The notes under the pieces: generated by a model | What the model saw: only the letters and a program-made list of their open reading frames with translations | What the model was told of the DNA's origin: nothing | Databases searched by the model: none | Translations under genes and position numbers: made by a program | IMG/VR virus record: IMGVR_UViG_3300048024_000800 | Span: 1-64,000 of that record | Strand: one strand, 5' to 3' | Source: a virus | DNA: 64,000 bases | Part shown: positions 43,697-58,869 of the stretch, piece by piece | How positions within the stretch are numbered: the stretch's first letter is position 1 | How the letters are laid out: each line of letters starts with the position of its first letter

Positions 43697-44607
43697 CAAC
43701 TTCTTCCCCAACATCAACGCAAGGTTTCAGTGATTATTATAATGATAATAATTTCATTGGCGCTGGAGTAGATAATCAAATAATAAACAGCTCGAGATGC
43801 TCAATTCTTCAGGGCTCTTCTAGTTTTATTAGCGGTAAATATAATTGCCATGCAGTAGGTGATTATCTGGGCGTAGGCTCTCTTCAGCTTGAGGATAATA
43901 CTTTTAATATAGGTTGCTTTAACGGAACTTATTCATGGGGGCCAATATTCGCAAAAAGAGGACTATCTGTTACTCATGATGCTATGTTTGGTGGGGAGGT
44001 TAGAATTGGCGGAAGTAGCAATAGGCATATTCAGCCTTCAGGTTTTTTTCCTGATAATTCATGGTTGGACATGGAAAACGGTTACTTTAAGGGTGGAAAC
44101 GACTTTGGTTATGTAGATTTTGATGCTCAAATGGACCTAGAAGACATGACTCAAAGATGGGCAGTGAGAATACATAATGGCTTTATAGAGGAAGATAGCG
44201 ATACAAGTTCTGATCTTTTTATAACCACCGACCCCTCCCAAACCCAGAAGCTTTCTAATTTGAACGTTCAAGGAGATGTAATTTCTTTTTCTTCCTCTGA
44301 TAGGAATTTAAAAGATAATATTTCTTTGATAGAAAACCCTCTCGATAAAGTTTTATCTCTTGATGCTATAGAATTTGACTGGAATTCTAACCAGCATGCA
44401 TACAGAGGTCACGATCTCGGGTTGATTGCTCAACAGGTAGAAGAGGTTGCTCCAGAGTTGGTGGTCACCAGAAGTGATGGATACAAGGCAATTAAATATG
44501 ATAAAATAAATTCTTTAATTGTTGGAGCTATACAAGAACAACAAAAGAAAATAGAATTTTTAGAAAAAAGGCTTGAAAGTCTGGAGCGGCGGTCTAGTCG
44601 TTCATAA
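43693..44607 (+). CDS. Tail fibre with C-terminal S74 intramolecular chaperone/peptidase
   Basis: 304 residues. Residues ~15-65 contain NNFIGAGVDNQI and similar beta-roll pieces that echo the GGGxNN repeats in the giant fibre. From residue ~200 comes the endosialidase-type chaperone domain: S202-D203-RN-L-K207 (catalytic Ser and Lys spaced as in S74 peptidases), then NPLDKVLSLDAIEFDW, HDLGLIAQQVEEVAPE and a C-terminal coiled coil (QEQQKKIEFLEKRLESLERR). Such domains trimerise fibres and then cut themselves off, so cleavage is expected just before S202. It converges with the minus-strand cluster, overlapping the facing gene by 14 bases. Confidence 0.9.
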   Translation: MTTSSPTSTQGFSDYYNDNNFIGAGVDNQIINSSRCSILQGSSSFISGKYNCHAVGDYLGVGSLQLEDNTFNIGCFNGTYSWGPIFAKRGLSVTHDAMFGGEVRIGGSSNRHIQPSGFFPDNSWLDMENGYFKGGNDFGYVDFDAQMDLEDMTQRWAVRIHNGFIEEDSDTSSDLFITTDPSQTQKLSNLNVQGDVISFSSSDRNLKDNISLIENPLDKVLSLDAIEFDWNSNQHAYRGHDLGLIAQQVEEVAPELVVTRSDGYKAIKYDKINSLIVGAIQEQQKKIEFLEKRLESLERRSSRS

Positions 44608-45421
44608 CTTTCATTAACACTCTAGCTTGCGTCGCAGGTATATCTGAAAAGTCATTCCATTCTTTTACTGAATCGTTTTTGTATTTTCCATCTTTCCACC
44701 AATCTCTAAGATAAACTTTAAATTCTTCAAAGCTTGAGCAGTTTAATTTTTCTTTGGCTAGGTTTTCTATCATTGAGTGGGGGGTAAGTGATGGAGATGA
44801 ATTTGATTGTCCAGAGAATGACTTGTTATTCGATTTATCTATTTCATCGTCCCCTACAATGTGGACGTTTAAGAAATTTCTCACGCATCTAACAAACGCT
44901 CTATTGCAAGCTATTGTTTCAAGGAATTTTGTAGCAAAGCTACTGGTATTATTTAGGGTAGCGTTCGCCATATCTTGAAACTCAACAGCTTTGTTTCCTG
45001 TTTCATAGTTTGGTAAAAATTTTATTTTGCAAACTGCTGCTACGTGGTCTTGTTCACATTTAACTATGTCATAAGAAACATCCAAAAAACCTCTAAGCTT
45101 TGCGAGTTCTTTTATTCCGCTTAGTTTTATTAATAGTTGGTGATCTCCCAGTCCAACTACGCTCCTTGGCATATCTTTTTTTCTTAAATCAAACCATGAT
45201 TTGTTCGGAAATAAATGCTCATCTTTTATCATTGATCTCCAGTTTACTGATCCATCTTCTGCGAATTCATAATCAACGTTATCTAATAAGCCAAATTGAT
45301 TTCTGCAGAATTTTCCTGGCCCATCTTTATAGTTTTTGATATAGTTCTTGGGTTTTTCTTTTATTTCTGCGGTTGATTCGAGAGTTACTGAGTTGTCTGT
45401 GGCTGATTTTGATTTTGTCAT
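44594..45421 (-). CDS. Putative ssDNA-annealing/recombination protein
   Basis: 275 residues. The core reads VNWRSMIKDEHLFPNKSW, LLIKLSGIKELAKLRGF, then CKIKF and ATLNNTSSFATKFLETIACNRAFVRCVRNFL. The helical A-NRAF-R-VRNFL segment after a short sheet recalls Rad52/Sak-like single-strand annealing proteins of phages, but the match is by general pattern and is weak. The C-terminal ~60 residues after a Ser-rich linker form a small separate domain. It is the last gene of the minus-strand early operon, and a whirly-like ssDNA-binding gene lies three genes upstream, which supports a DNA-recombination role. Confidence 0.4.
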   Translation of the reverse strand: MTKSKSATDNSVTLESTAEIKEKPKNYIKNYKDGPGKFCRNQFGLLDNVDYEFAEDGSVNWRSMIKDEHLFPNKSWFDLRKKDMPRSVVGLGDHQLLIKLSGIKELAKLRGFLDVSYDIVKCEQDHVAAVCKIKFLPNYETGNKAVEFQDMANATLNNTSSFATKFLETIACNRAFVRCVRNFLNVHIVGDDEIDKSNNKSFSGQSNSSPSLTPHSMIENLAKEKLNCSSFEEFKVYLRDWWKDGKYKNDSVKEWNDFSDIPATQARVLMKVMND

Positions 45422-46581
45422 TATTTGCGTTCGTTATAAATTTTTATTATGTTCAAGTCTTCCCAGAATTCTTCACAATCAATAATTTCATTATGATTTC
45501 CTGGTTTGTCGTACTTCCATGCAGCCTTACTGTTGTATATTTGGCCTCCTGATACTATTTTCATTGAACATTTATAACGAGAATTATCGCATAGTTTTTC
45601 TGATTTGTCAAGATCTTTTTTTGTTTTTGGTTGTTGTAGTAAAATATTCCAATCAAAAAACTTAACTCTTATATTGTTTATATTTTTTTTATCTTTGCTT
45701 ATTAAATTAAATTTTATATTTGATCTTTCTAATAATCTAAAATAGTTTTCATTATCTTCTTCTGATACATAGTAATTTATATAGTTTATGTTATCCTTTA
45801 TTATATTGAGGTATTTTATTTGCATGGGTTTATCTAGGAAAATATTGCATTTTCTGTCGTATGCCCATTTAACTATATTTTCTTCATCAAAGCATTCGTT
45901 GCCCCATATGTTTACTGCTTGACCCTCCGCGAATGAGGACGGCATGATGTGGTTTGGCACAACAGATATAGAGCTTTTGTGGTACTCCACTCCAGTGTGT
46001 ATTGTTTCTATTTTATCTAGATCATTCTTTATTTTTAATAAATTTAATACACCCAAAGCTATCTCCTCTGGCTTGATTAGGTTAACTGTTTTGGGGAACT
46101 CTTTACTTGAAAAGGAGGGCTTTAATCCTTTTCTGTCTGACTCTATTAATATTTGATTATTTTTGTCGCCCCAATAAGGGCCGCAACATTCTTTATATAG
46201 TATGCTATATAGGCACACTATTTTTTTATTATATCCTGATGCTATATGTGTGCTAAATGAATCATTTCCGAAGTGTAGTAGAGAGTTTTTTATTAAGTAA
46301 GCTGTTTGCCTTATTGAGGTCTTCCCGTGAAAGTTTGTGCATCCAGGTATACCTTTGTCGTCTTTTCCTCCTATTTGTATAATTTTTATCCCCATTTTTC
46401 TTAGGTAGGGTTCAATTATTAAGATTACATCTTCAAAGTAGTCGTAGTTTTTTGATTCCATTCCGCTGCTTGCATGCAACGTTATGTATTTATCATGCGG
46501 AACCGGAAAAAAAAGAGGTTCTATGTGAGGAGTATCTATCTTAACTCCGCAGGAAAGCGCATATTGTTCTATTAAGTGCAT
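45421..46581 (-). CDS. GT9-type glycosyltransferase, C-terminal (donor-binding) half
   Basis: 386 residues. Residues ~30-190 match only the second Rossmann half of heptosyltransferase-type GT9 enzymes: YITLHASSGMESKNY, IIQIGGKDD, then LLHFGNDSFSTHIASGYNKKIVCLYS. The first half of the fold is missing here but is present at the C-terminus of the upstream protein. The start overlaps the upstream stop by 10 bases (ATGCACTTAA). The last ~180 residues are a separate domain of unknown kind (VPNHIMPSSFAEGQAVNIWGNE). The stop shares its last base with the next start. The two halves probably associate, or a frameshift joins them. Confidence 0.65.
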   Translation of the reverse strand: MHLIEQYALSCGVKIDTPHIEPLFFPVPHDKYITLHASSGMESKNYDYFEDVILIIEPYLRKMGIKIIQIGGKDDKGIPGCTNFHGKTSIRQTAYLIKNSLLHFGNDSFSTHIASGYNKKIVCLYSILYKECCGPYWGDKNNQILIESDRKGLKPSFSSKEFPKTVNLIKPEEIALGVLNLLKIKNDLDKIETIHTGVEYHKSSISVVPNHIMPSSFAEGQAVNIWGNECFDEENIVKWAYDRKCNIFLDKPMQIKYLNIIKDNINYINYYVSEEDNENYFRLLERSNIKFNLISKDKKNINNIRVKFFDWNILLQQPKTKKDLDKSEKLCDNSRYKCSMKIVSGGQIYNSKAAWKYDKPGNHNEIIDCEEFWEDLNIIKIYNERK

Positions 46582-48476
46582 ATGTCGAATTGTATTTTAT
46601 CTTTTCCGTTGTGCATGTAATTTAACATCCTTTGAGTTCCTATGAAGGGCAAAAAAGCTATTTCAAAGAAACCTTCGTGATCTCCGTGCCCTTCCATTAC
46701 TGTAAGGTTATCTAAATTCTTATCGTAGGGTATAACCTTATGTATATAAGGATTTCCTTCTAGTACTTCGAAATACTCCTTTTTCGTTGCAAAGTAAATA
46801 TTTAAATCCGGATAAGTCTCTTTTATGTTTTTTAGTAAAGAGGTGCATAGATATACATCCCCTATGCTTTCGGGCATCGATATTAAAAGCCTTTTTCCTT
46901 TATCGTCCTCACTTAAAAGCTCAGAGAAATTTATGTTTTTATTTTTTTCATTATCTTTTGCTGCTACCTGCTTAAAGTATTTTAATATTTCATCCCTGGT
47001 GGCGCCTTCGGATAATTTTTTTGACCAATGCTTGTGCCCATCATCAGATTCTTTAATTTCCATATCTAGGATATTTCTATAAATATCTTTTAACCAATCA
47101 GATTGATCCTCTATCTCTGGAGGGTTATATTCAGGGTTTTTAGGTTTTGATTTAAAATCAAAATCCCAATCTGGAGCATCCATATTATCTAGAAGTAGCT
47201 CCAGTTTTTTTCCTATAGATTCTATTCCGTAATTTTTTATTGTAAAATCTCTAGCTTTCCTACCAAGCTCTTCTCTTTTACTGTTACTCATTCTGAATAC
47301 TTTTCTTAATTGACTGGCTATACTGTCAGGACTGGTGCTAGCTTTGATAAACTGGGTGCCCGGTTCTCTATATTCAGTCCAGCTAAGCGGTAGGCCTGCC
47401 GAGTCTTTGGTGCAGCAATCTTCTCCGCAGCTATAATTTGTTACTAGAGTTATCAACTCTGTTAGCTTCGCTTCTTGTATAGGTATCTCTTGACCCCCGC
47501 TTGTAAATGGGTGGCAATAGACGTCCATGCAGTTATATATCTGATTTAACTGAATTTCACTAACCCCTAGTTTAGCATTTGTTGTGTTTTGGCTTTTCTT
47601 TGAACCGCAAAAAGGGCAATCTTCTTCCTCTTTCGAGAAACTTTTTATCTCGAAGTTTTTGCAATTAGAGCATATATAAGTAGTTAATACTCTGGATGGA
47701 TCTATTTTTTTCTCCTTGATTAACCTCGGGATATCCCAGCCCTCTGACCAGCTAGTGTGTAATAGTAATTTAGCTGATGAGTTTGGATTTTGGTTACAAA
47801 AAATCTTGAATCCTTCAAGTAGATTTGGGACGCTCTTTCTTAATTGGTTTCTAAAAACGAAACCTATCACAAAGTCTTTATCTATTTTAAAGAAGTTTCT
47901 TATCTTCTTTCTATCTTGATCCTCTAACTTTTTAAAGTTTGAGGTGTCTAGAGCTCCATGTAGAGTTTTTACATGATCGTGACCTAATTTATTTAAAGCT
48001 TTTGACGCGAAGGATGACCACGTAAAATAGTTTTTAATCTCTGGGGCAACTTTCTCTGCTTCGGGTAGTATTGGCAGGCTGTCTAAAGTAGTCCAGATCA
48101 TGCAATTTATTTTGTTCCACCATTTCTTTTCTGTATATCCTGAGAAGGCCCATATGTCTTCTATACCTATGTAAACATCAGGTTTCTCCTGTTCAATTAT
48201 CTTGTCAATCGTGTGGGTTCCGTAGCTGGCGCTTCTTGCTAAACTTGGATCTTCTTTTAATTTTCTTAATAAAGATGGATTGTTGGGGAGAGAGCCCTCA
48301 CACTTCCATGGCAAGTTTTTTAAAGACGCGTCTCCCCATTGTATGCCGTTTGAGAACTCTACTATATCATACTTTCCTGTTTTTTGTAAGTAGAGTAGTA
48401 TATTTTTTGTATGCTTTCCGAATCCAGTAAAAGCTTTACAGTGATTGGAGTGTATTAAGATTTTTTTTTTATTCAT
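46572..48476 (-). CDS. GT4-type glycosyltransferase + DUF4214-like module + GT9 N-terminal half
   Basis: 634 residues. Residues 1-~430 are a GT-B, GT4-like enzyme (HSNHCKAFTGFGKHTKNIL; IGFVFRNQLRKSVPNLLEGF; YCHPFTSGGQEIPIQEAKL), with an inserted zinc-ribbon-like pair (CSNC...CPFCG) near residues 275-300. Residues ~460-510 (WLKDIYRNILDMEIKESDDG) resemble DUF4214. Residues ~527-634 are the first Rossmann half of a GT9 enzyme (RLLISMPESIGDVYLCTSLL), ending abruptly where the next gene begins. TAATG coupling to the ssDNA-binding gene upstream. Likely transfers sugars in the phage-borne glycan pathway. Confidence 0.75.
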   Translation of the reverse strand: MNKKKILIHSNHCKAFTGFGKHTKNILLYLQKTGKYDIVEFSNGIQWGDASLKNLPWKCEGSLPNNPSLLRKLKEDPSLARSASYGTHTIDKIIEQEKPDVYIGIEDIWAFSGYTEKKWWNKINCMIWTTLDSLPILPEAEKVAPEIKNYFTWSSFASKALNKLGHDHVKTLHGALDTSNFKKLEDQDRKKIRNFFKIDKDFVIGFVFRNQLRKSVPNLLEGFKIFCNQNPNSSAKLLLHTSWSEGWDIPRLIKEKKIDPSRVLTTYICSNCKNFEIKSFSKEEEDCPFCGSKKSQNTTNAKLGVSEIQLNQIYNCMDVYCHPFTSGGQEIPIQEAKLTELITLVTNYSCGEDCCTKDSAGLPLSWTEYREPGTQFIKASTSPDSIASQLRKVFRMSNSKREELGRKARDFTIKNYGIESIGKKLELLLDNMDAPDWDFDFKSKPKNPEYNPPEIEDQSDWLKDIYRNILDMEIKESDDGHKHWSKKLSEGATRDEILKYFKQVAAKDNEKNKNINFSELLSEDDKGKRLLISMPESIGDVYLCTSLLKNIKETYPDLNIYFATKKEYFEVLEGNPYIHKVIPYDKNLDNLTVMEGHGDHEGFFEIAFLPFIGTQRMLNYMHNGKDKIQFDICT

Positions 48477-49126
48477 TAAAACGGAGCATCCTCTGAGGGC
48501 GTCGGTTTTTCGGTTTTATTATTTGCGCCATCACAAGAAATGTTTAGTAGTTTTTGAAGCATACCTAATCCTCCAGCTAGATAATCTTGGGGCCTATTAT
48601 CGCTTTTATCTCGATAGCTTTGCATCTTTTTATGATCCTCTATTCTTCTGTGCTCGTAGAGACAATGAAGGTAATGTTTAAAAAATTCGGCTAGATTCTC
48701 TACCTCGCCGGGTTCTAGTGGTATTCTGAAATTTTGACTTCCATTTCTAGTTAGGGTTATTCCGAAGGCAGGAAGAGTTACCCATTTTTCAGAATCTGCG
48801 GTTTTTATTTTTGACTTCTTGTCCCAGGGGGTAAATTTTATTGAAGTCTTGTTGTCTTCAAATGCATGAAAAGATGAGAATTCGTTCCTGTTTTTAAACG
48901 CGCTTATTACTCCGCCTATTTCAAATTCAGTAAATTTTATATTTATTTTTTTATCTGGATCATTCGCATTTTGAGAAAAGCTTCCCGTTTTTGTTTTGTC
49001 GTTCCAACTGTGCTGTTGAATGGCGTTTGCGTAAACAACCGGCTCTTTCTTTTTGTTATGACCTATTGAGAAATTGAAAGCACAACCTGCGTTTTTGCTG
49101 TTTGGTTTGTATAAAGATAATGACAT
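48476..49126 (-). CDS. Whirly/PC4-like ssDNA-binding protein
   Basis: 216 residues. The first ~150 form a beta-rich unit ending in a helix (NIKFTEFEIGGVISAFKNR; FGITLTRNG...FRIPLEPGEVENLAEFFKHYL), the pattern of PC4/whirly ssDNA-binding folds. After a flexible linker it ends in SEDAPF, an acidic-hydrophobic tip like that of SSB proteins (DDDIPF), which recruits replication partners. This tip is what most supports the call. It has its own promoter (49148-49175) and heads a subgroup that ends with a recombination-like gene. The family assignment is by pattern only. Confidence 0.5.
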   Translation of the reverse strand: MSLSLYKPNSKNAGCAFNFSIGHNKKKEPVVYANAIQQHSWNDKTKTGSFSQNANDPDKKINIKFTEFEIGGVISAFKNRNEFSSFHAFEDNKTSIKFTPWDKKSKIKTADSEKWVTLPAFGITLTRNGSQNFRIPLEPGEVENLAEFFKHYLHCLYEHRRIEDHKKMQSYRDKSDNRPQDYLAGGLGMLQKLLNISCDGANNKTEKPTPSEDAPF

Positions 49127-49147
49127 GATGTTAAAGATATTTTAATA

Positions 49148-49175
49148 ATAATAACATTCATATTTGTTTTGTCAA
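49148..49175 (-). promoter_or_regulatory. Sigma70-type promoter for the ssDNA-binding gene
   Basis: Minus strand: TTGACA (49175-49170), 16-base spacer, TATTAT (49153-49148). The predicted start of transcription is about 15 bases before the ATG at 49126. No clear ribosome site follows. The -35 overlaps the stop of the preceding WavE-like gene. Confidence 0.7.
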
Positions 49176-50050
49176 CTATCAATTAATTCTATGTCGTGAC
49201 ACCAGTCTTCTTCGTTGTATAGCGCGTCATACTTTCTGTAGCTAGATGTCCATATGTGATTTGGTAAATCGCGTATTCTTATTATGTCAAAATGTTTTTT
49301 CATTAGTTCTGTGCATTTTTTTTCATCTAGCACGCCAACCCTTTTTAAGTTTTTGTCCCAAAAGCTTTCTATTATAGCTCGACACAGTAGCTGTTCTGGA
49401 AATTGAGATATCCTTTTTTTATTGCAAAGCTCTGTTGATAGTTTAAACACGTCAAGCATCCTTGTTCGCTCTCCAGCTACAATATGATCGGATGGGTGGA
49501 ATTTGTTCTGCCTTGAGAATCTAAAATAGATATTCGAAGTTATTATTTTGAACCATTGATATTCTCCGTTTTTTTTATTTATGTGAGAGTTGTTTATTAA
49601 TTTTGATATGAATGGCTCTAGGGTTGGGTAACTCTCGTCAGATCTAACTTTTATACAAAAGAAACCTGTCGCCTTTTTGATTCCGCTTAATGTCGTTATG
49701 TTTTGGTATATCCATGGGGCTTGTTTTCCTGGCTTTTTATTTTTAACTTTTACGTTTTTATATTTATTGACTACGATTTTTATTTTATCTTTGTAATTAT
49801 CTAGTCTTGATAGGTCATCTGTGTCCCAACAACTTACTATAACTTCTCCGTAGCGTAAATAGTTATTTATGGTGCTTATTGATCTTTCGTGAAGTGGTCC
49901 TTGTATTATTATTGATACTGTTCTTTCGCGCTTTTCGAATCTTTTTAATATTCCTTTTTGTAGCGATATCGAAAAATTAGTAAAACTCGAAACGAAACTT
50001 AGTTCTTGCCCTTCCTTGTTTTTTAATTTGTGTGGGTTCCATTCGTTCAT
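49172..50050 (-). CDS. WavE-like polysaccharide biosynthesis protein
   Basis: 292 residues. VSIIIQGPLHERSISTINNY, YGEVIVSCWDTDD and GFFCIKVRSDESYPTLEPF are the three landmark segments of the WavE family, linked to lipopolysaccharide outer-core synthesis in Vibrio. It probably is a GT-A-like glycosyltransferase with the D-x-D-type RSDESY region. ATGA overlap with the gene upstream. Confidence 0.7.
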   Translation of the reverse strand: MNEWNPHKLKNKEGQELSFVSSFTNFSISLQKGILKRFEKRERTVSIIIQGPLHERSISTINNYLRYGEVIVSCWDTDDLSRLDNYKDKIKIVVNKYKNVKVKNKKPGKQAPWIYQNITTLSGIKKATGFFCIKVRSDESYPTLEPFISKLINNSHINKKNGEYQWFKIITSNIYFRFSRQNKFHPSDHIVAGERTRMLDVFKLSTELCNKKRISQFPEQLLCRAIIESFWDKNLKRVGVLDEKKCTELMKKHFDIIRIRDLPNHIWTSSYRKYDALYNEEDWCHDIELIDS

Positions 50051-50469
50051 TTTAAATAATCAGAACATAAGCCAAAGCATGGAGGCCCCGCATACCGCCT
50101 TGCATCATCTACAACCAAAACGCTTTTATTGCTGACCCTTTTTCCTGGATAGGTCCATATGAAATTTTTAGAAGTTAACGTAAAGTCGTCTGACTCATGC
50201 CAAAAATAATTTAAAGTTCTAAACTGGCTAAGTAGGTCCATTGCTTCTAGGTTTTTACAATGAATCCATAAGTGTCTGAAGTTCTGAATGAGAAATTTTG
50301 TAGGACACGGAGTTTCTGGGTTATCATGCCCGAGCCATAATTGCTTATCTGCCCAGATGTCAATTTCGACATCAAATCCTAGTTCTAGAGCTTCCTCTAT
50401 GTAACTTATTGAGTTTTCTCTTTTTTCGTTAGGGCCAGCAATGTTACCCCTGTGGGATATTAATATCAT
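50047..50469 (-). CDS. GDPD-like (TIM-barrel) phosphodiesterase fragment or relative
   Basis: 140 residues. ISHRGNIAGPNEKRENS, GFDVEIDIW and WLGHDNP match the opening of glycerophosphodiester phosphodiesterases: catalytic His in HRG, the metal-binding E-x-D pair (EID) and the second His in GHD. At 140 residues it is about half the usual length, so the barrel is short. Proteins of this short type are often found in bacterial surface-glycan clusters. It overlaps its upstream neighbour by 26 bases. Enzyme activity is uncertain. Confidence 0.6.
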   Translation of the reverse strand: MILISHRGNIAGPNEKRENSISYIEEALELGFDVEIDIWADKQLWLGHDNPETPCPTKFLIQNFRHLWIHCKNLEAMDLLSQFRTLNYFWHESDDFTLTSKNFIWTYPGKRVSNKSVLVVDDARRYAGPPCFGLCSDYLK

Positions 50470-51826
50470 ATTTTAAGAAAGTTTCTAGATCCTCTGGAGT
50501 TCCTAGCCCCCACATCTTTTCAATATGGAACGTTTTTACTCTAGCTCCATTCAATAAAGCTTCATTATATACTGGGCATACGTAGAATTCATTATTGACT
50601 CTAATATTTTTTTCTATCATCTGTTCTGCTGATTTTACGTAATCAGAGCCTTTTCTCCAGAAGTATATACCAACAGTTGCATGTTCGCTGATGGGTTTCT
50701 TTTCTGCTACTTCAATCACGAATCCGTCATCATTTAATTTTGCGTAACTCCACTTGGGGTGAGTTGAGTGAAATGTTAAAATGGACGCATCGATGTCGTC
50801 TGCCATAGATGAGTACATGAATTGATTACTGTCCCACTGTACATACTGATCGGAGTTTGCTAGAACTAATGGTTGATCATTGTTGATAAACTCTTTAGCT
50901 AAAAGCGTCGTGCATGCCGCTCCCTCGGTTAAGCCTTCTACTTGAACTATTTCGCAGTTTGGAGAAATTAAATTTAAAGTATGCTGTAGGGAGTATTTTT
51001 CGTAATGTTCTTTTTGTACAATAAAGATATGCTTGGCATCGATATTTAAGTTTTCGACAACTCTTTGTATCATAGGTTTTCCATCAACATCAATTAAGGG
51101 CTTAGGAAAAGTATAACCTGCTTGCTCGAATCTGGACCCTGCTCCAGCCATAGGAATGAGTACGTTCATTTTACCTCCTTGCCATTTGGGTGAAATTGAT
51201 GATGTTTTTTCTGCACTTAGTATAGTATTGTTTACCTTAGTAAATGTCAAGTCGTTAGAATCTGTAACTGCACATAAATGTGCCCCGCTTCTTATTGCTC
51301 CTTTTCTTCCGATGTGAGAGTCTTCTATAACTAGAGTTTCGTCGGGGTTAGCTTTCGCTTTGATCATGCACTGCATGTAAATTTCCGCATTGGGTTTTGG
51401 TAAGTTTACATCTTCATTTGAGTATAGAAAATCTATGTATTCAAAAAAACCTTTTCTTATTAACATTAATTTTGATGTATCTCTTATAGAGTTTGTTGCG
51501 CATGCAATTTTATAATTTTGTGATTTTAGTTTTTTAAGAATATCTATTATTCTATGGTCACGCTGGTAGTCGTCTATTTCTTGTAATGTTTTTTGTTGTT
51601 TGAGTTGCCATACTCTGTTGTGATATTTTTCTGGAAGATTTTTTTCGGCGGTTAACTTTTTTAGTTTTTGCGTAGTTGTTAATGCGTCATACTTGCAAAG
51701 ATGTTCTTCTTTGCTGATTGTGTATTCTCCTCCTATTTCTGAAAGGGCTTTATTTAGGGCAATGTAATGTAATTCGCGCGACTCAACCAATACTCCATCT
51801 AAATCAAATATAATTAATTTAATCAT
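50444..51826 (-). CDS. HAD phosphatase/mutase - sugar nucleotidyltransferase fusion
   Basis: 460 residues. Residues 1-~212: HAD hydrolase of the beta-phosphoglucomutase type with nucleophile D8 and D10 (FDLDGVL), CATNS motif, LPKPNAEIY lysine and EDSHIGRKGA acid motif. Residues ~220-460: nucleotidyltransferase with IPMAGAGSRFEQAGYTFPKP (signature loop), DVDGKPMI, LANSDQYVQWD and a closing MWGLGTPEDLE. Together they could convert a sugar phosphate (by mutase or phosphatase action) into an activated NDP-sugar, supplying donor to the glycosyltransferases around it. The exact sugar cannot be told. Confidence 0.85.
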   Translation of the reverse strand: MIKLIIFDLDGVLVESRELHYIALNKALSEIGGEYTISKEEHLCKYDALTTTQKLKKLTAEKNLPEKYHNRVWQLKQQKTLQEIDDYQRDHRIIDILKKLKSQNYKIACATNSIRDTSKLMLIRKGFFEYIDFLYSNEDVNLPKPNAEIYMQCMIKAKANPDETLVIEDSHIGRKGAIRSGAHLCAVTDSNDLTFTKVNNTILSAEKTSSISPKWQGGKMNVLIPMAGAGSRFEQAGYTFPKPLIDVDGKPMIQRVVENLNIDAKHIFIVQKEHYEKYSLQHTLNLISPNCEIVQVEGLTEGAACTTLLAKEFINNDQPLVLANSDQYVQWDSNQFMYSSMADDIDASILTFHSTHPKWSYAKLNDDGFVIEVAEKKPISEHATVGIYFWRKGSDYVKSAEQMIEKNIRVNNEFYVCPVYNEALLNGARVKTFHIEKMWGLGTPEDLETFLKYDINIPQG

Positions 51827-52559
51827 CCGTTTTACTTAATGCTGCGTCGATAAGTAGGTCTATTTCTTTTTTGTTTCTTGGAAAATTTCTTGGGCAATGG
51901 CAGTCGATAAAATGTCCACCTTTAATTTCGCTTAAGGAGTAGTTCCAGTTTTTTCTATCAATTCTTCGTGTTGCTATTGCGTTATTAAAGCCTCTTTTTA
52001 AAAAGGATATTTTATTTTTATTATTCCACTTATTAATCATTCTTCCAAAGAATAATTCATCCGTATCCCATCCCCAGTTAAATTTACTTAAGTTTTTGCA
52101 ATATTCCTCGAATGAATGGCTTAGTTTTAATATCTCAATAAAAACTTTACCTTTAGCTGCGTTGTAGCATATCGGGAACCTGTTTCTTGATAAAGAGGAG
52201 GGGGCATCAGAAGTCATGATTGCAATGTTATCACTGCAAATTTCTTTTATGCTATCTGAGAAATAGTGGGGGCTTAATGGAAGCATATCGATATCTGATG
52301 TTATGCAAGTTTTTTCCTTATAGTATTGGGTTGCAAACATTCTCGATATTTGCGATTGAGTTGATATGGGTAAATATTTGTTTTTTTTTATAAAATGTAA
52401 ATCGTAATTTTCATTTTCAACATAATCGTTTCTGTCGCATATGAAAACTAATACTGGCTTAATACCAACGAGGTCACTCCATAATCTAGAAGCGTACGGC
52501 CAGAATTCTATATAAGAAGACTCGTTATCTGCGCTAACTATTGCATAATCAATTTTCAT
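51819..52559 (-). CDS. GT-A-type glycosyltransferase
   Basis: 246 residues. ITSDIDMLPLSPHYF carries a D-x-D metal/nucleotide-sugar motif, preceded by FATQYYKEK and followed by WGWDTDELFFGRMI, where a Trp-Gly-Trp-Asp segment normally sits near the acceptor site. Overall it looks like a GT8/GT-A family member. It lies head to tail in the cluster, overlapping its downstream gene by eight bases. Acceptor and linkage unknown. Confidence 0.65.
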   Translation of the reverse strand: MKIDYAIVSADNESSYIEFWPYASRLWSDLVGIKPVLVFICDRNDYVENENYDLHFIKKNKYLPISTQSQISRMFATQYYKEKTCITSDIDMLPLSPHYFSDSIKEICSDNIAIMTSDAPSSLSRNRFPICYNAAKGKVFIEILKLSHSFEEYCKNLSKFNWGWDTDELFFGRMINKWNNKNKISFLKRGFNNAIATRRIDRKNWNYSLSEIKGGHFIDCHCPRNFPRNKKEIDLLIDAALSKTDD

Positions 52560-52563
52560 ACAA

Positions 52564-53157
52564 CTAAGGAACTCTGGAAAGAATCATTAATCCATTATTA
52601 TTTTTAAATTCTTTTTCTATATTCCATTGTTTATTTAGATTTATAAAGTCGGTAACCGCTGCATATAGGCCGGTTTTGTTTTTGGGCATATCTTTTATTA
52701 AATTGCTTGCGTGTTTATATGTGTGTTCATCTTTATTCTTAAATGAAACTGTATCATGTAATATAATTGCATGATTAACTTTTGCGGAATGCCTTGTTAA
52801 TTCACTGTATAGTTGATTGTAGGTGTGCAGTGTATCTATGAAAAGCACATCTGTTTGCTCTATTTCTATTGATAGGCTATCACATTCTTGGAATATAAAA
52901 TCTGTTTTTAATGATTTTGATATGTCTATTATTTGTTGAGTTTCATTTGTTATTTTTATGTCATAGGATATTAATTTATTGGGCTCCCCTGCTAGTAAGG
53001 CTATAGTCGAACTGCCCCATCTTACGCCCATCTCTGTTATGTGATTATATTTCTCGGCGTAAGATTTTAGGGTGGGAAGGTGCTCATTTATGTCGATTGA
53101 TTTATATAAGAGGGGCTCTGTTGTATGTTTTTTGTATAATTCTTTAATTAATTTCAT
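52564..53157 (-). CDS. SAM-dependent methyltransferase (methyltransferase-24-like)
   Basis: 197 residues. HITEMGVRWGSSTIALL is the glycine-bearing SAM-binding loop, KLISYDI the second strand with acidic end, DVLFIDTLHTYNQLYSEL and HAIILHDTVSF the later strands. This arrangement is typical of class-I methyltransferases such as cephalosporin-hydroxylase-like and Methyltransf_24 enzymes in surface-glycan clusters. It may methylate a sugar, for example to cap a chain. Confidence 0.7.
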   Translation of the reverse strand: MKLIKELYKKHTTEPLLYKSIDINEHLPTLKSYAEKYNHITEMGVRWGSSTIALLAGEPNKLISYDIKITNETQQIIDISKSLKTDFIFQECDSLSIEIEQTDVLFIDTLHTYNQLYSELTRHSAKVNHAIILHDTVSFKNKDEHTYKHASNLIKDMPKNKTGLYAAVTDFINLNKQWNIEKEFKNNNGLMILSRVP

Positions 53158-53845
53158 TTGAGTATCCTAAATGTTTATGTAAATAGTGCATTCTTTGTAT
53201 ATCTATGTGTCTATTTGGTGGAAACTTGCACCTGAAGTGAAATATATTATCTGGGATATTTATATTAATAATATCATTAAGGTGAGGGAAGTCAAAGCGT
53301 TTTTGTGGTGATGGACTAATGCCTGCTTGGAGAAAAATTTTAGATATAGCTACGTCGTCCGGTAAAGAATGGTCCCATAATTCTTTTTTTTCTAGGCATA
53401 GGTTTATTAAGTCTTTAGATATGAAGTATCCAGATCCGGAGCAAAATTTAATGCGTTCGTTTTGTTTTTTGTTTGAGTGGCTGCCTATTACTCCGCTATA
53501 AAATTTATTAATTGGTATTTTTTTTATAAAATATAGGAATTGAGAACTATGTATATATGATGAAATATTTGTTCTGAAAATATAATCTGGATTGTATTTG
53601 GTATTTATAAGTTTAATTGCTTCTAGTGTTTTCCTTCCGATGTTTTCTTTTAGCTCTTGGCCTGGGCATAGTATGTAGTCTTTTTTTATTTGCGCTGACT
53701 CTACTGAGTTGCTATATTTATAGAAAAATATTTTTACATCGTTATTTTTTGACAACTCTTTTATCCACGTGGGTCTTTGCCCTTTTTCCTCTATGCCAAT
53801 AAAGGGGGCGCTATCCGTGGTTAATATAAGTATTATGCATTTCAT
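53144..53845 (-). CDS. Beta-1,3-galactosyltransferase-like protein
   Basis: 233 residues. The order LILTTDSAPF, YIFRTNISSYIH, FCSGSGYFISKDLI and LPDDVAISKIF parallels GT31-type enzymes (KxDDD, then GxGYxxS, then EDVxxG). Where these enzymes carry an acidic DDD, this protein has TNISS, so the usual metal site is missing. It could be an inactive relative or use another mechanism. It overlaps the genes on both sides by 14 and 35 bases. Confidence 0.5.
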   Translation of the reverse strand: MKCIILILTTDSAPFIGIEEKGQRPTWIKELSKNNDVKIFFYKYSNSVESAQIKKDYILCPGQELKENIGRKTLEAIKLINTKYNPDYIFRTNISSYIHSSQFLYFIKKIPINKFYSGVIGSHSNKKQNERIKFCSGSGYFISKDLINLCLEKKELWDHSLPDDVAISKIFLQAGISPSPQKRFDFPHLNDIININIPDNIFHFRCKFPPNRHIDIQRMHYLHKHLGYSNEIN

Positions 53846-54542
53846 GATTGTTTATAGATTGCTCTTTCCAGTTTTTATCTAAGTATACGTAGTCTTCTGT
53901 TTTAGGGAAAAGTTCTATGTGCTCTTTAGTTTTTCCGACAGGTATGTAACCAGGATGAGGCTCTGAGTGTATTAGAATTTTTTTAGTGTATTTAAGCATT
54001 TTGGGTACGAAGTAGTTAGTTAAGAAGAACTCGTCTGCCCCGTATATAGTTTTATCATCTTTATATTCGTTTATTAAATTAAGTGTTGAGAATGGGGTTT
54101 TCTTTGAGGATATACAGCCAGCCATGTAATACCTAGGTTCTTTTTTCTTATACAGGGCTAACCTGTCATGGGCGAACCATATGAATTCTAGCATATGATC
54201 TTTTTTTAGCCAATCATTGATGCAAAAAATGTCGTTCTCTTGTATTGGAAAATCTAAATCCCTGCAGACTGTTATATCTGCGTTATCAAAAGCCAAAAAG
54301 CGCCAAAAGCAACCTTCTCTACCTTTAGACCTTGGCATTTTTATAAGTTCAGTGTTTTTAATTGAATTTAATCTACTAATAATGCCTTCGGGAACCGTGT
54401 CATCGTGGTATACTCTAAATTTCCAATCGGGCATAAAGTCTCTAACAAATTTAGCATTCCTTATTGATCCTATGGAGTATTTATTAAAAGATGTAAATCT
54501 ATTAAAAAAAAGAGATGTCGATATAATCTTCTTTATTGTCAT
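53811..54542 (-). CDS. GT-A-type glycosyltransferase (DxD)
   Basis: 243 residues. Features are WKFRVYHDDTVP, GCFWRFLAFDNADITVCRDLDFPI with the D-x-D motif in RDLDF, YYMAGCISSK and IYGADEFFLTNYF. The layout (acceptor-side YMAGC then DEFFL) is that of small GT-A enzymes found in marine phage and bacterial glycan clusters. Sugar and acceptor are unknown. Confidence 0.6.
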   Translation of the reverse strand: MTIKKIISTSLFFNRFTSFNKYSIGSIRNAKFVRDFMPDWKFRVYHDDTVPEGIISRLNSIKNTELIKMPRSKGREGCFWRFLAFDNADITVCRDLDFPIQENDIFCINDWLKKDHMLEFIWFAHDRLALYKKKEPRYYMAGCISSKKTPFSTLNLINEYKDDKTIYGADEFFLTNYFVPKMLKYTKKILIHSEPHPGYIPVGKTKEHIELFPKTEDYVYLDKNWKEQSINNHEMHNTYINHG

Positions 54543-54576
54543 AAAGGCTTAAGGTTAAATTTAAAATATTTTTATA

Positions 54577-55182
54577 TTAATCTATTGTTTTTTCTGTGCA
54601 AATTATTAATTGAGTACTCTGGGATCTATTTGTTATTTTGTGATCTATCACTTTTAGGTGGCTTGAAATATATTGGTTAAATTCAGAAGAGTTCCACTCT
54701 CTAATATGAGTTTTATTTCCTGGAGGGCCATTATACCCGGGGTTATTGGGGTGATAGTGCAAGTCTCTATCTGGGGTAGATATGAATGCAAATTTAAATT
54801 TAAAAGTTTTTATATATTCCATTAGCATGTCTGGATTTATTAAGTGCTCTATTACATCCGCACAGATTACTATATCTGTTTTAAGGTTTGGGGGGTTGTT
54901 GAAATCTGATTTAAGCCATTGATGGGAGGGATATTTTGAATTTAAGAAATCAAGGTTACATTCAACTTCTAGTCCTGTGGTGTTATATTCCTGGAAGTAT
55001 TTAACAAGTTTATATCCGGAGCCACACCCAATATCAATTACATTATTAAGGTCATGTTTTTGCATGAAGCCCCTAGCTTCAAGATAGACTTCTTTTTGCC
55101 AACCATCAGTATTTTTGGTATCATCATAATGTAGGAAATTTTTCCTAGAGGTATAATTGTTTTTTATAAAGAAATTTTTCAT
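54577..55182 (-). CDS. Class-I SAM-dependent methyltransferase
   Basis: 201 residues. NNVIDIGCGSGYKLVKYF is a textbook SAM-binding motif I, TTGLEVE strand two, then SDFNNPP, TDIVICADVIEHLINP and FAFISTPDRD. These match the UbiE/COQ5-type methyltransferase fold. It lies in the glycan cluster, so O-methylation of a sugar is the likely job, as for other cluster members. Confidence 0.8.
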   Translation of the reverse strand: MKNFFIKNNYTSRKNFLHYDDTKNTDGWQKEVYLEARGFMQKHDLNNVIDIGCGSGYKLVKYFQEYNTTGLEVECNLDFLNSKYPSHQWLKSDFNNPPNLKTDIVICADVIEHLINPDMLMEYIKTFKFKFAFISTPDRDLHYHPNNPGYNGPPGNKTHIREWNSSEFNQYISSHLKVIDHKITNRSQSTQLIICTEKTID

Positions 55183-55187
55183 AAATA

Positions 55188-55862
55188 TTAAAGTTTTACT
55201 GATATTAATTTTATGTGTTTGTTTAATTTTTGAGAAGATATTATCTCATAATTAATGTTATTTAAGCCACTTTTTTTAAAGTGAGATAGTTGAATTTCTT
55301 TATTTCCAGTATTAAATATAAGATCTTCTAGGTCTGATATCTTTTTCTTTTCGCCAGAATAGATTTCATTATTTGGTTTATGGGGTAAAATTTTTAACAT
55401 ATTGAATGTTGTTAGTTTAAGGTGGCCTGACATATTGTTTTTATTTATAATATATCTATGAAAAAGGGCTCTATCTTCTATTCCCCATCCCCATATATTA
55501 TTAGGAAAGCCATTTGCTTCCTGGAAGCTGCAACTCGAGAGTTTGCATACGCCCCCCAAGGAATTTTCGTGGGCAGTGAAGATGCGTAATGCATCATATG
55601 AGTTGATAGTGTAAAATTCTTTAATTAATTTTTCTGAAGGAATAATATCTACATCATGGGTGATAATAAAATCTTTATCGGAACTTTCCAGGAAACCTAT
55701 ATTTAATAGTTTTCCCCTATTGAATTTTTTATTGTCAGCTTGCTCTATTATTAATATTTCGGGTTGATTGAAATATTTAACGAAAACTTCTAGGGTGTTT
55801 TTTATAAAAATATTAAGATGTTCGTGTCTGTCCCTGAATGGAATAATTATTGACGATTTCAT
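55188..55862 (-). CDS. Beta-1,4-galactosyltransferase-like (GT7) enzyme
   Basis: 224 residues. It shows the full GT7 order: IIPFRDRHEHL, IIEQADNKKFNRGKLLNIGF, THDVDIIP (D-x-D), SLGGVCKLSSCSFQEANGFPNNIWGWGIEDRALFHR (quoted here in two parts: GGVCK... and NGFPN, WGWGIED). Animal enzymes have WGWGGEDDD; here it is WGWGIEDRA, so the catalytic ED is kept and the following acids are lost. ATGA overlap with the upstream gene. Confidence 0.78.
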   Translation of the reverse strand: MKSSIIIPFRDRHEHLNIFIKNTLEVFVKYFNQPEILIIEQADNKKFNRGKLLNIGFLESSDKDFIITHDVDIIPSEKLIKEFYTINSYDALRIFTAHENSLGGVCKLSSCSFQEANGFPNNIWGWGIEDRALFHRYIINKNNMSGHLKLTTFNMLKILPHKPNNEIYSGEKKKISDLEDLIFNTGNKEIQLSHFKKSGLNNINYEIISSQKLNKHIKLISVKL

Positions 55863-56761
55863 TTTAAATATTTGTTTTTCATGTGGGATTTGATTTCCTT
55901 AAATATGCCCTCGTTCCACATAAAGTTGTTTTGGAATTTTTTATAAACTTCTTGATTTAACCAACTGTCAAGTTTGAAGTTTTCAGGGTTGCTATGCTCT
56001 CCTATTTCTCCTATGTAGTTGAAGTTATTAGTGAACGTAGATACTTTAATGAAACCTCTGGCCGCAAAGGCTGCCGAGGTGCATGAGTCTTGACTTGAAA
56101 CAATTTTTCTTGGATCAGCTCCAATGGAAGACATTAATTTTAAAATTTCTCCATGAGGTCTGAATCTATATTCTTGCGGCAATAACTTCCAGTACGACTC
56201 CAGTATGTCATATATTGATTCATAAGAAGATCTCCTTATTGCATAAGCCCAAAGATGATCCATTAAAATGAGTTTATCCTTATTGTCTTCTTGAATATTT
56301 ATAGAAAGCCTGTCGTCTCTATCATGTGAATAATTTATATATGAATAACGGTGAGTTTTCTTTGATCGATGATGCTCTCCGAAGCAATTAATCATCGCTA
56401 TTCTTTCGTCGTCTTTAAATTTATCAATAAGAAAATCTAACTGCTGTATGTAATGAGGTTGCAATACGGAATCGTCTTCAATGATTATAGCAAATTCATG
56501 GTCTTTAAGAGCCAACTCTCTTGCGTATTTCATTATCCTAGCAACACCTTGGTTTGATTTTGATATTACTGTTTCGCAGTGAGGAATGAATTGGTTGGCT
56601 AGTTTAAATGAATCTTCAATTAAGGGAATATCTTCCTTGAACCTAGGTCCATCGACAACACAATAAACCTTCCTATCCCAACATTGCGGAGATAATGAAT
56701 CTAAGACTCGCTTAAAGTAATCAGGTCTATTATAAGCTGTTAGTACTATTGGAGCTTTCAT
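55859..56761 (-). CDS. GT2/GT-A-type glycosyltransferase
   Basis: 300 residues from ATG 56761 (MKAPIVLTAYNRPDYF); the frame is open to an ATG at 56806, which would add a charged 15-residue leader absent from the family and overlap the upstream gene further. Key parts: VLTAYNRPDYFKRVLDSL, YCVVDGP, FAIIIEDDSVLQPHYI (EDD motif) and MDHLWAYAIRR. It fits GT-A enzymes that recognise nucleotide sugars with EDD. Substrate unknown. Confidence 0.68.
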   Translation of the reverse strand: MKAPIVLTAYNRPDYFKRVLDSLSPQCWDRKVYCVVDGPRFKEDIPLIEDSFKLANQFIPHCETVISKSNQGVARIMKYARELALKDHEFAIIIEDDSVLQPHYIQQLDFLIDKFKDDERIAMINCFGEHHRSKKTHRYSYINYSHDRDDRLSINIQEDNKDKLILMDHLWAYAIRRSSYESIYDILESYWKLLPQEYRFRPHGEILKLMSSIGADPRKIVSSQDSCTSAAFAARGFIKVSTFTNNFNYIGEIGEHSNPENFKLDSWLNQEVYKKFQNNFMWNEGIFKEIKSHMKNKYLK

Positions 56762-57548
56762 TGTAGATTGTAGAGTTGTGCCCTTGATTTCTCCATTTTT
56801 TTCCATCTTTGCATAATATAGTTTTTATATTTCCAAAAGAATTGGTGCCTGTTAATTGCTTGTACTTACAGTTTTGTAAATGAAGACACATAGTCATGAC
56901 TGACTCGGGGACCTTAATCGTGTATTCTGGGTATCCATCTTCCCACATGATTTTTATAGCTTGTCTTAAAAATGATAGGCAATTAAAATATTTATCCATT
57001 TGATCTGGGTGACCAATAGCAAATTGATCATTGATTTGATTTGGTAGAGATTGTTTTTCGTAAACAAAACTAAAACTAAATTCTTTTTTTAATTCTTCTT
57101 CGTGATCGTAAATATTATCACTTTCAAATAAAGGTAATCTTATTAATTTATTTTTTATGCAATCATTTTTTTCATGAATTTTGATTGGTTCGAGAACTTG
57201 TATATCTGGGCGTAATCTGACAACTAGATCGTACTCAGTTTTTTTGTAAGTAATATAATCCTGATACATTGTGTGGCAGGTCTTTAGTCCTGCTAGCATG
57301 GGTATTAATCCTGGGTTAGGTTCGAGTTTTAATTGATCTATTGATCCTACTACTTTCATTACTTGATTGAAATTTAAGATGTGCTGCCTTGTGGGTCTGT
57401 AGTATTGGTAGAATTCTTGATAGGGTTGGTCATCCCAGGTACTGATAAAAATATCTGGACTGAGAGGTTGTATTATGTTTTTCGTTATGGATTCTATACA
57501 GTTTTCCCAGTCTCCTAGTTTTCCGCTAAATAGTAGTGCTGTTTTCAT
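56730..57548 (-). CDS. Polysaccharide-cluster protein, glycosyltransferase-like
   Basis: 272 residues. TALLFSGKLGDWENCIESI, PDIFISTWDDQPYQEFY, and YDLVVRLRPDIQVLEPI form a pattern common to unnamed proteins of bacterial glycan clusters (opening strand, STW, RxRPD). The RPD acid segment may be the metal site of a GT-A-like fold. ATGA overlap with the GT9-like gene upstream. Confidence 0.5.
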   Translation of the reverse strand: MKTALLFSGKLGDWENCIESITKNIIQPLSPDIFISTWDDQPYQEFYQYYRPTRQHILNFNQVMKVVGSIDQLKLEPNPGLIPMLAGLKTCHTMYQDYITYKKTEYDLVVRLRPDIQVLEPIKIHEKNDCIKNKLIRLPLFESDNIYDHEEELKKEFSFSFVYEKQSLPNQINDQFAIGHPDQMDKYFNCLSFLRQAIKIMWEDGYPEYTIKVPESVMTMCLHLQNCKYKQLTGTNSFGNIKTILCKDGKKWRNQGHNSTIYNESSNSTNSL

Positions 57549-58495
57549 TCTGTGATATATTCCGTTATGTTTCTCTGGGCTACAAGCTTTTCGATATTAT
57601 CCAATAGGAAAGGGTAAAGTCTGTACGCAGGATTTCTTAATGTGTTTTTGATTATTTGTCCCGCGCTCTTAACGTCGTAGTGTAAGGGAAGCACGAACTT
57701 TTCATTAAAAAGCCATCTTATTAGATATGAATATTGAGTTACGCCGTAAGACTCGCAGTACTTTGAGAACGTAAAAGTGGGCTTTCCATAGTGGTAGGGA
57801 ATGAATCTTATTCCAGAATCAATTCCAAAAGCGGCGATGCACTTACTTGATATAAAGAAGATGTCTGTTAGCGAAGCTTCCACAAAGTGTAGTCGAGGGT
57901 TTTCGTCATTAATTATATCTTGATACTTGTGTTTGGAATCTTTATCCATAAGTACTACCACGTCAAACTCTAGAGCAATATTCTTTAAGAGTTTATCAAT
58001 ATACCAATCTTCCATATTCGAATCTGCCCCATCTCTAGCATATAGATGTGACATTATGAATCTTTCTGGAAGATCTATTTTTGAGTTTATTTGGCATTCT
58101 GGTTTTGGGAAAAAATTAAATCTTTTAAACCAGTCAAAATTATAATTTAACCATTCCAATGAATCGATATGTAGATCATAAAATTTATCATATTCTTTAT
58201 TCATTTTATTGAATATGTTATCGGGTACATTCTTTATATTGCCGATGTGATCTTCATCTGGGAAATTGGATGATTTTATTTTAAATGTTTTGTATTTTTT
58301 TTCTTTAATGATGAATGTTTCATTAAAATGAGAAGGCCACATTTCATTAAGTATTTTTGATTGACTCTCGCTTCCTTCTGTATCTGAGAATAAATCTATA
58401 GAGCAATCTGGATGAAGCTCCTTTATTGCCGGAACAAAACGGTTTGCCGCAAAATGGTCTCCTAGCCCTCCCTCCATTCTTACTGATACCTTCAC
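57545..58495 (-). CDS. GT9-like glycosyltransferase
   Basis: 316 residues from GTG at 58495 (GTGA overlap with the HTH gene). KVSVRMEGGLGDHFAANRFVPAI is the GT9-type opening (R-x-x-x-GLGD), HPDCSIDLFSD the next strand, and CIAAFGIDSGIRFIPYHYGKPTFTF the second-half motif (normally NDTGPxH-x-A). The Asp-Thr-Gly of the family reads as D-S-G. It is the first sugar gene in the operon. Probably transfers a heptose-like or related sugar. Confidence 0.65.
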   Translation of the reverse strand: MKVSVRMEGGLGDHFAANRFVPAIKELHPDCSIDLFSDTEGSESQSKILNEMWPSHFNETFIIKEKKYKTFKIKSSNFPDEDHIGNIKNVPDNIFNKMNKEYDKFYDLHIDSLEWLNYNFDWFKRFNFFPKPECQINSKIDLPERFIMSHLYARDGADSNMEDWYIDKLLKNIALEFDVVVLMDKDSKHKYQDIINDENPRLHFVEASLTDIFFISSKCIAAFGIDSGIRFIPYHYGKPTFTFSKYCESYGVTQYSYLIRWLFNEKFVLPLHYDVKSAGQIIKNTLRNPAYRLYPFLLDNIEKLVAQRNITEYITE

Positions 58496-58806
58496 TGTCT
58501 ACTACCTCTGATTATCACGTTATCTCCGCCGAGTACTACAGTAGTTAACTGGGTTAATGTTTTATTGCAAGTTTTTTTTCTTTTGATATGTTTGGCCTTG
58601 GCTAACCTGTTGAGACTTCCTGATATTTTTCCGTATGACATTCCCCCAAGATCCAACCCTATTCTTTCGTTGGAGAAAAAGATTGGCTTTCCGTGGGACG
58701 CCTTGGAAACGAGATAGTTATATACAACTAAATCATTGCCAATTAAGTTTCCATTGATAATATCTTCTTGTACAACGACTGGAATTTGTGTGAATTTTTT
58801 CATCAT
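58492..58806 (-). CDS. Winged-helix DNA-binding protein, probable leaderless message
   Basis: 104 residues from ATG 58806 (MMKKFTQIP). An upstream ATG at 58821 overlaps the promoter -10 box and is not used. The middle shows an HTH-type helix pair (IFFSNERIGLDLGGMSYGKISGSLNRLAKAKHI, given here as IFFSNERIGL and GKISGSLNRLAKA), followed by a beta wing. It resembles replication-initiator/DnaD-type or MarR-like winged helices, family not settled. As the first gene of the minus-strand operon and next to a palindromic region, it may be an early regulator. Confidence 0.55.
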   Translation of the reverse strand: MMKKFTQIPVVVQEDIINGNLIGNDLVVYNYLVSKASHGKPIFFSNERIGLDLGGMSYGKISGSLNRLAKAKHIKRKKTCNKTLTQLTTVVLGGDNVIIRGSRQ

Positions 58807-58811
58807 GTTTG

Positions 58812-58840
58812 ATAATATCATGAAAGCTTACTTTTGTCAA
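58812..58840 (-). promoter_or_regulatory. Consensus sigma70 promoter, leaderless, for the glycan operon
   Basis: Minus strand TTGACA (58840-58835), 17-base spacer, TATTAT (58817-58812). The ATG begins five bases past the -10, so transcription should start at the start codon. Confidence 0.85.
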
Positions 58841-58869
58841 GCAACATTCAAAAAACTGTACATGCGACA

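Follow-up and report, generated by a model that had tools for sequence, protein, structure and literature searches.

The locus considered here is a run of overlapping minus-strand open reading frames (45421-58495) in an uncultivated tailed phage from the sea, which a preliminary description had taken for a glycan biosynthesis operon of about ten glycosyltransferase (GT) genes under one strong promoter. It raises the question of whether these genes form a single system, and of what such a system would glycosylate. The window analyzed is a stretch of 64,000 nucleotides, positions 1 to 64,000 of IMG/VR record IMGVR_UViG_3300048024_000800.

Two abutting units

Reading of the open reading frames in the window confirmed the overlapping genes and extended the run beyond 45421 down to 44594. 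The glycosylation genes form two evolutionarily separate units that abut, unit A (44594-49126, minus strand) and unit B (49172-58821, minus strand). The four genes of unit A were kept together across the 85 loci read (the first, gene X, in 83 of them), at identities down to 35-45%; in none of 57 distant loci did unit B lie close to unit A. Two near-consensus promoter sequences were present:

49148..49175, minus strand: unit A promoter, TTGACA-16-TATTAT with TG, 11/12 matches
58812..58840, minus strand: unit B promoter-like site, TTGACA-17-TATTAT with TG, 11/12 matches

The promoter at 49175 is conserved upstream of gene X, with a mean score of 10.2 across 39 orthologous upstream regions versus 8.4 in shuffles. 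At 58840 the −10 element overlaps the listed start of the 58492-58821 gene, and the true start of that gene is therefore probably downstream of the listed one. Because two units of different evolutionary behavior abut, the proposal of one operon with one promoter is unsupported.

Chance was ruled out, and so was contamination with host DNA, an alternative raised in the preliminary description: at least 18 viral records have the same loci, flanked by phage structural genes. Just beyond the window, at G000 66528-74119, lies a second GT cluster flanked by fiber-like genes. The multidomain GTs between these fiber-like genes have the arrangements GT25-pyruvyl transferase-DXD GT and exostosin-type-GT8-GXM methyltransferase-GT34. 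The glycan cluster as a whole is of an already known kind; the split GT9 unit described below appears to be undescribed.

Unit A and its divided GT9 enzyme

At least 561 stretches encode relatives of unit A. In order of transcription its genes are:

48476..49126, minus strand: gene X, 216 aa, first gene of unit A
46572..48476, minus strand: GT4 with inserted Cys4 zinc ribbon, DUF4214-like segment and GT9 N-terminal half; PHROG GT 3.2e-20, GT4 fold matches
46572..46581, minus strand: overlap of the two GT9 halves, 10 nt, C-half frame in −1
45421..46581, minus strand: GT9 C-terminal (donor-side) half, residues 1 to ~180, with an extra C-terminal domain; Pfam GT9 6.5e-6
44594..45421, minus strand: gene Y, 275 aa, last gene of unit A, in 85/85 loci

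The genes for "GT9" and "GT4" had been described as two ordinary enzymes. Both families were matched, but GT9 is split, its N-terminal half being fused to GT4 and its C-terminal half separate. The N-terminal half comprises residues ~527-634 of the 46572 protein; in a profile search residues 527-588 matched residues 7-68 of the GT9 structure 3tov (E 3.9e-4). It includes the catalytic Asp of the GD motif, D540, which was kept in 72 of 74 sequences. The 45421 protein gave a profile match to residues 240-288 of 1psw and fold matches to 1psw, 3tov and TibC over ~175 residues, and within its D-S-x-x-x-H-A motif D107 and H112 were retained in 68 and 69, respectively, of 73 sequences. In the GT4 part, whose closest fold match is a chlorovirus protein, the four zinc ribbon cysteines (C269, C272, C287 and C290) were invariant in 74 sequences. 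The DUF4214 match was below its Pfam cut-off.

The split falls at the same residue everywhere, and in 80 loci the two halves were never fused on one polypeptide. In the close family the halves share the same 10-nt overlap or one of 13 nt, whereas distant phages have other spacings or an inserted gene; 14 of the 80 loci, and also loci L253 and L254, have an extra gene between the halves. At locus L251 the two frames do not overlap when translation is taken to begin at the conserved Met. A sequencing error or a programmed −1 frameshift was rejected as the source of the junction, because the split is constant in ~50 loci and elsewhere the halves are separated by whole genes; inspection of the junction by eye showed no slippery heptamer. 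Since D540 and the D-S-x-x-x-H site belong to different chains, the GT9 enzyme can work only if the two polypeptides associate, and from these sequences we infer that they would do so.

Genes X and Y belong to no known family. Searches of Pfam, PHROG and PDB gave no useful match for gene X, which had no similarity to an SSB, and none worth naming for gene Y, which had none to lambda Bet or the ul36 Erf-like protein. The idea that they encode single-strand-binding and annealing proteins was accordingly dropped, and both were left unnamed. Among 50,697 phage records, the GT9 C-terminal half, gene X and gene Y found no match and the GT4 protein weak matches only. Unit A often adjoins replication genes.

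Unit B and its exchanged cassette

The ends of unit B are conserved in relatives (the HAD-nucleotidyltransferase, GDPD-like, WavE and 56730 genes), with an exchangeable cassette between them:

49172..50050, minus strand: WavE-family GT, unit B core; PF07507 3e-10
50047..50469, minus strand: compact GDPD-like phosphodiesterase, 140 aa, unit B core; profile match to GDPD 7e0v, E 1.1e-4
50444..51826, minus strand: HAD (beta-phosphoglucomutase-like)-sugar nucleotidyltransferase fusion, unit B core; PF13419 (HAD_2) 4.8e-28, PF00483 (NTP_transferase) 2.6e-11, PDB matches to 4evw and beta-PGM
51826..55856, minus strand: exchanged cassette (51819, methyltransferase-like 52564, GT31-like 53144, 53811, methyltransferase 54577, GT7 55188)
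55859..56806, minus strand: GT2-family GT; PF00535 3.4e-6
56730..57548, minus strand: conserved unit B protein, phrog_13607; GT function by motif only
57545..58495, minus strand: protein GT9-like by eye
58492..58821, minus strand: 109-aa protein, phrog_22534, conserved first gene in siblings

The borders of the cassette were seen by comparing the window with L004. The flanks are 97.6-97.8% identical on both sides, and no shared DNA was detectable between 51826 and 55856; tail-tip genes diverge in the same phage pair. Cassette gene sets differ among siblings, and the cassette has a lower GC content (31-32%).

The predicted mutase/phosphatase-nucleotidyltransferase fusion was borne out by the two domain models, and the GDPD-like protein by its profile match to a solved GDPD and by H-R, E-D, H and K residues invariant in its alignment. 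This donor pair, adjoining or nearby, also occurs in cyanophages and SAR11; it is found in bacterial loci and adjoins glycan genes in one SAR11 genome. The count of about ten GT genes held in part: family models identified GT9, WavE, GT31 (53144, Galactosyl_T, 3.8e-5), GT7 and GT2, and PHROG a GT in the 46572 protein, but 51819, 53811, 56730 and 57545 had no clear GT match. The 57545 protein was rejected as a full GT9, having neither a Pfam nor a PDB profile match. Of the two methyltransferases claimed, 54577 was clear and 52564 weak, below the cut-off. In 17 loci 56730 is the sole gene of at least 130 aa between 58492 and the HAD-nucleotidyltransferase gene. By eye, the 58492 protein is possibly a winged-helix regulator.

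Pathway and acceptor

These assignments support a glycan pathway carried by the phage, in which donors are activated, chains are extended and the product is tailored. Nine records, among them G025, a circular relative of 184 kb, were searched for lipid-carrier initiators (PF00953, PF02397) and for GtrA (PF04138); none matched, and the controls were positive. Every cluster protein is predicted to be soluble, without membrane anchors. Of the acceptors suggested earlier (a host glycan, a virion protein or DNA), DNA is the least supported, and host lipopolysaccharide (LPS) is most likely, slightly ahead of virion proteins as a close second.

We tentatively favor, at somewhat less than an even chance, a soluble phage-borne pathway that adds sugars to the host LPS core, changing the surface and excluding competing phages. 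Unit B encodes the donor-making enzyme (HAD-nucleotidyltransferase with its GDPD partner), core transferases and the exchangeable GT/methyltransferase set; in unit A the GT4-GT9 N-half chain would associate with the separate C-half chain. These enzymes would act in the host cytosol, adding sugars stepwise to a pre-existing acceptor, the LPS core at the inner membrane face. Unit A would make the constant part of the glycan, shared by all these phages, and unit B a variable part specific to lineage or strain; phages with the same receptor would be shut out of the altered cell during infection. LPS-core assembly requires neither an undecaprenyl carrier nor a polymerase, and the proposal thus fits the lacking initiator and GtrA and the soluble proteins. 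It is favored by the LPS-type families present (GT9, WavE, GT25, pyruvyl transferase), by the donor pair in bacterial loci and beside SAR11 glycan genes, and by cassette exchange with sharp borders together with tail-tip divergence in one phage pair. Analogous polymorphic clusters of cyanophages and pelagiphages have been read as O-antigen remodeling (PMC7824862, PMC7029224). Counting against it, superinfection exclusion needs just one transferase, surface remodeling does not require unit A to adjoin replication genes as it does in many phages, and the proposal presupposes a host with LPS.

Soluble transferases would also fit cytosolic decoration of the phage's own virion proteins (tail fibers or capsid), with a constant core glycan made by unit A and variable outer sugars added by unit B together with the second cluster; we consider this a real possibility, if a doubtful one. 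A constant core with variable decoration, made by cytoplasmic virus enzymes including multidomain GTs, is known from chlorovirus N-glycans (PMC7826918), and mycobacteriophages Che8 and Rita are reported to have glycosylated virions (PMC11256854). The position of the second cluster between fiber-like genes, which also weighs against LPS, the lack of membrane anchors, the chlorovirus fold match of GT4 and the sibling varying in both tail-tip genes and cassette all agree with virion decoration. Against it, unit A travels with replication genes, not structural ones.

T4 glucosyltransferases act on hydroxymethylcytosine. A T4-like role for unit A on phage DNA or a replication protein, with unit B a separate surface or virion system, is highly improbable here: the dNMP kinase at 59278, the invariant zinc ribbon inserted in GT4 and the location of unit A directly after DnaB-ThyX-primase-nuclease-polymerase genes in one phage group speak for it, but PF00303 had no match in the nine records including G025 (9/14 controls positive), Tet_JBP none in a search where no control matched either, and a C5-cytosine methylase was found in one distant phage only. 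Moreover, 6-bp palindromes are scarcer than expected in both sets, suggesting exposure to restriction. A broader form, in which unit A is a replication-linked glycosylation system common to a large group of uncultivated phages, its two GT4/GT9 chains and zinc ribbon acting with X and Y on phage DNA or a replication protein, is unlikely. It is very unlikely that the genes are passengers, host glycan genes gathered at a recombination hot spot with no constant role in infection. Cassette genes differing between near-identical phages and their lower GC content would agree with this; the retention of the unit A set, its split position and its key residues at such low identities, and of the unit B core in siblings, argues against it.

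Comparison with known systems

GT9 heptosyltransferases (WaaF 1psw, 3tov, TibC) resemble the enzyme here in that each half matches GT9; they differ in that here there are always two genes, the N-terminal half fused to GT4 and the C-terminal half with an extra domain. In GT-B enzymes that are split, for example Alg13/Alg14, two polypeptides form one active site. Their two-chain site is the likeness, drawn from description rather than sequence, and they belong to another GT family.

Cyanomyoviruses S-CAM9, B23 and S-SM2 and the pelagimyophages share with this phage runs of GT genes and the HAD-nucleotidyltransferase and GDPD-like genes (59% and ~45% identity), and their clusters, like unit B, vary between related phages (PMC7824862, PMC7029224). 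Cyanophage-type clusters match neither the GT9 halves nor WavE, however, and the epimerases and sugar kinases of S-SM2 were not noticed here. Capsid glycosylation in chlorovirus PBCV-1 is similar in its virus-encoded, cytoplasmic, multidomain GTs and its constant core with variable outer sugars (PMC7826918), but PBCV-1 infects eukaryotic algae and has a known acceptor. Che8 and Rita (Freeman et al. 2023, cited in PMC11256854), likened by description, have phage-encoded GTs and a possible virion acceptor, with few GTs compared with more than 10 here. The gtrABC genes of P22 and Shigella phages also alter O-antigen (annotated in P22); they form a membrane GtrA/GtrB/GtrC system, and the GtrA family was not found here.

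GT clusters of marine phages are known and poorly understood. Here the constant and the swapped parts are separated with exact borders, making their two roles testable apart. The split GT9 unit occurs in hundreds of viral stretches, with three of its four genes unmatched in the phage records searched, and its two chains offer a concrete target for finding what phages glycosylate. These results suggest that building glycans of their own is a basic, little-studied part of the lives of such phages.

Organization of the Gene Run

The full virus record is 74,951 bases long, and the window covers its bases 1-64000. The neighbourhood is common to 18 records, of which nine were compared gene by gene. 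The features were as follows:

44594-58821, minus strand: closely packed gene run
44594-49126, minus strand: unit A, with its own promoter
49172-58821, minus strand: unit B, starting at a near-consensus promoter (58840)
66528-74119 in G000 coordinates (8529-16120 of L082): second glycosyltransferase cluster, just outside the window between fibre-like genes

The preliminary description had proposed one glycan operon under a single strong promoter. Family searches supported transferases of the WavE, GT31-like, GT7 and GT2 types, a GT4-type protein and one half of a GT9, together with a HAD-nucleotidyltransferase fusion and two proteins resembling methyltransferases. The 140-aa protein is a compact GDPD-like enzyme that carries the catalytic residues usual for this type; four more proteins were taken as transferases by eye only. 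The single promoter had to be abandoned, because unit A has its own in addition to the 58840 site. Across 39 orthologous regions upstream of unit A, the best sigma-70-type site scored a mean of 10.2 out of 12 vs. 8.4 in shuffles (an extended −10 earning an extra half point), and 17 regions scored at least 10.5, compared with 0.6% of shuffles.

The second cluster encodes two DUF2827 proteins and two large (approximately 900-aa) multidomain glycan enzymes, one a GT25-pyruvyl transferase-DXD transferase and the other an exostosin-type-GT8-GXM methyltransferase-GT34 protein. It is missing from the corresponding place in two relatives, G011 and G013. Another relative, G025 (184 kb), appears circular, since one gene recurs at both ends. 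Its ∼79-82 kb and 150-154 kb stretches (L091-L100) contain genes that by eye resemble those for succinate dehydrogenase cytochrome b, inorganic pyrophosphatase and a DUF1501 protein; these may point to the host.

Unit A and the Split GT9

The order in unit A is gene X, a gene for GT4, zinc ribbon, DUF4214 and the GT9 N-half (46572), the GT9 C-half (45421), and gene Y. Scanning with an alignment of the GT4/GT9N protein revealed at least 561 stretches encoding relatives. All 85 loci read in detail had GT4/GT9N, GT9C and Y, and 83 had X; those without X start at or near a contig end. Genes X and Y and the GT9 C-half had no match among 50,697 phage records. X and Y were first guessed to be single-strand binding and annealing proteins, but tests of this idea gave it no support.

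The 46572 protein profile matched GT9 (3tov) with its last hundred residues only (E 3.9e-4), and that of 45421 matched the donor-side half of heptosyltransferase II (1psw); the predicted structure of the latter matched 1psw, 3tov and TibC over ∼175 residues. In the close family the two reading frames share 10 or 13 nt; in distant phages they abut, overlap by 1-20 nt, or stand a whole gene apart (14 of 80 loci), which excludes programmed frameshifting as a general mechanism at the junction. No fused halves were seen in the 80 loci. In nearly all cases the C-half starts at one and the same residue (H-[L/I]-x-E-x-Y-A), and key residues are kept in both halves. An active GT9 would thus need assembly from two chains, and this anatomy suggests that they associate.

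Within the stretches read, all 57 distant unit A loci lacked HAD-nucleotidyltransferase, GDPD and WavE genes. Some distant phages have DnaB, ThyX, primase, nuclease, PHP, exonuclease and DNA polymerase III alpha genes, followed by unit A. In distant loci (L283-L334) CGATCG is strongly avoided (4 observed vs. 48 expected), as is CCGCGG. In the window, a conserved protein that is GT4-like by motif, with no Pfam match, is encoded at 60801-61853, with 61853 on one side and what looks by eye like a canonical SSB gene on the other; the cluster to which it belongs was present in 29 of 64 loci.

Unit B and the Exchanged Cassette

The smallest unit B consists of 58492, 56730, and the HAD-nucleotidyltransferase, GDPD-like and WavE genes. 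In 17 loci, which represent fewer distinct phages, nothing else of at least 130 aa besides 56730 lies between 58492 and the HAD gene; the others have 57545 plus three to six changing genes (methyltransferases, GT25, sulfotransferase, pyruvyl transferase, cytidylyltransferase and others). The window and L004, a related locus, are 97.6–97.8% identical on either side of the cassette and have no detectable DNA similarity across 51826-55856; therefore, unit B is an exchange locus with sharp borders. Record G001 has the L004 pattern plus strongly diverged tail-tip genes. One cassette variant (L046 6306-9301), with a CST-I/MptE-like protein and a cytidylyltransferase, suggests a sialic-acid-like sugar.

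The HAD-nucleotidyltransferase/GDPD pair also occurs in cyanophages and in bacterial assemblies, among them SAR11 and Prochlorococcus. In one SAR11 assembly (L134 9551-11371) it forms a two-gene island with gyrB-like and lepA-like genes on either side, so it may be a self-contained pathway. In Legionella (L128 9132-11419) a LicD-like gene (by eye) precedes the HAD-nucleotidyltransferase, which hints that the enzyme might make a CDP-alcohol instead of a hexose donor.

The −10 box of the unit B promoter overlaps the listed start codon of 58492-58821, so the true start is probably further in. Two repeats resembling TACAATTNNTTGNATGTCGC, possible operators, lie upstream at 58822-58910.

The Acceptor

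GT9, WavE and GT25 are families typical of the lipopolysaccharide core. The preliminary description had seen no flippase or lipid carrier enzyme; in agreement with part of this, neither GtrA nor a transferase that would start a glycan on a lipid carrier was found in the nine records. With no membrane segment in any cluster protein of the window, this fits a mechanism in which sugars would be added stepwise in the cytosol onto a ready acceptor, the lipopolysaccharide core being a candidate.

DNA glycosylation by unit A is tempting from the position of the unit, but it lacks a base-modifying partner, and palindromes are avoided. Virion proteins are another possible acceptor and a close second to the lipopolysaccharide core; their model is the chloroviruses, with a constant core and variable decoration (PMC7826918). 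We tentatively place the host surface slightly ahead because of the enzyme families and the precedent from marine phages (PMC7824862, PMC7029224).

Our search for a description of unit A in open papers found none. Unit B belongs to an already known kind of cluster, of which it is a new member, and unit A is, to our knowledge, a previously undescribed, conserved four-gene block in which GT9 is obligately split.
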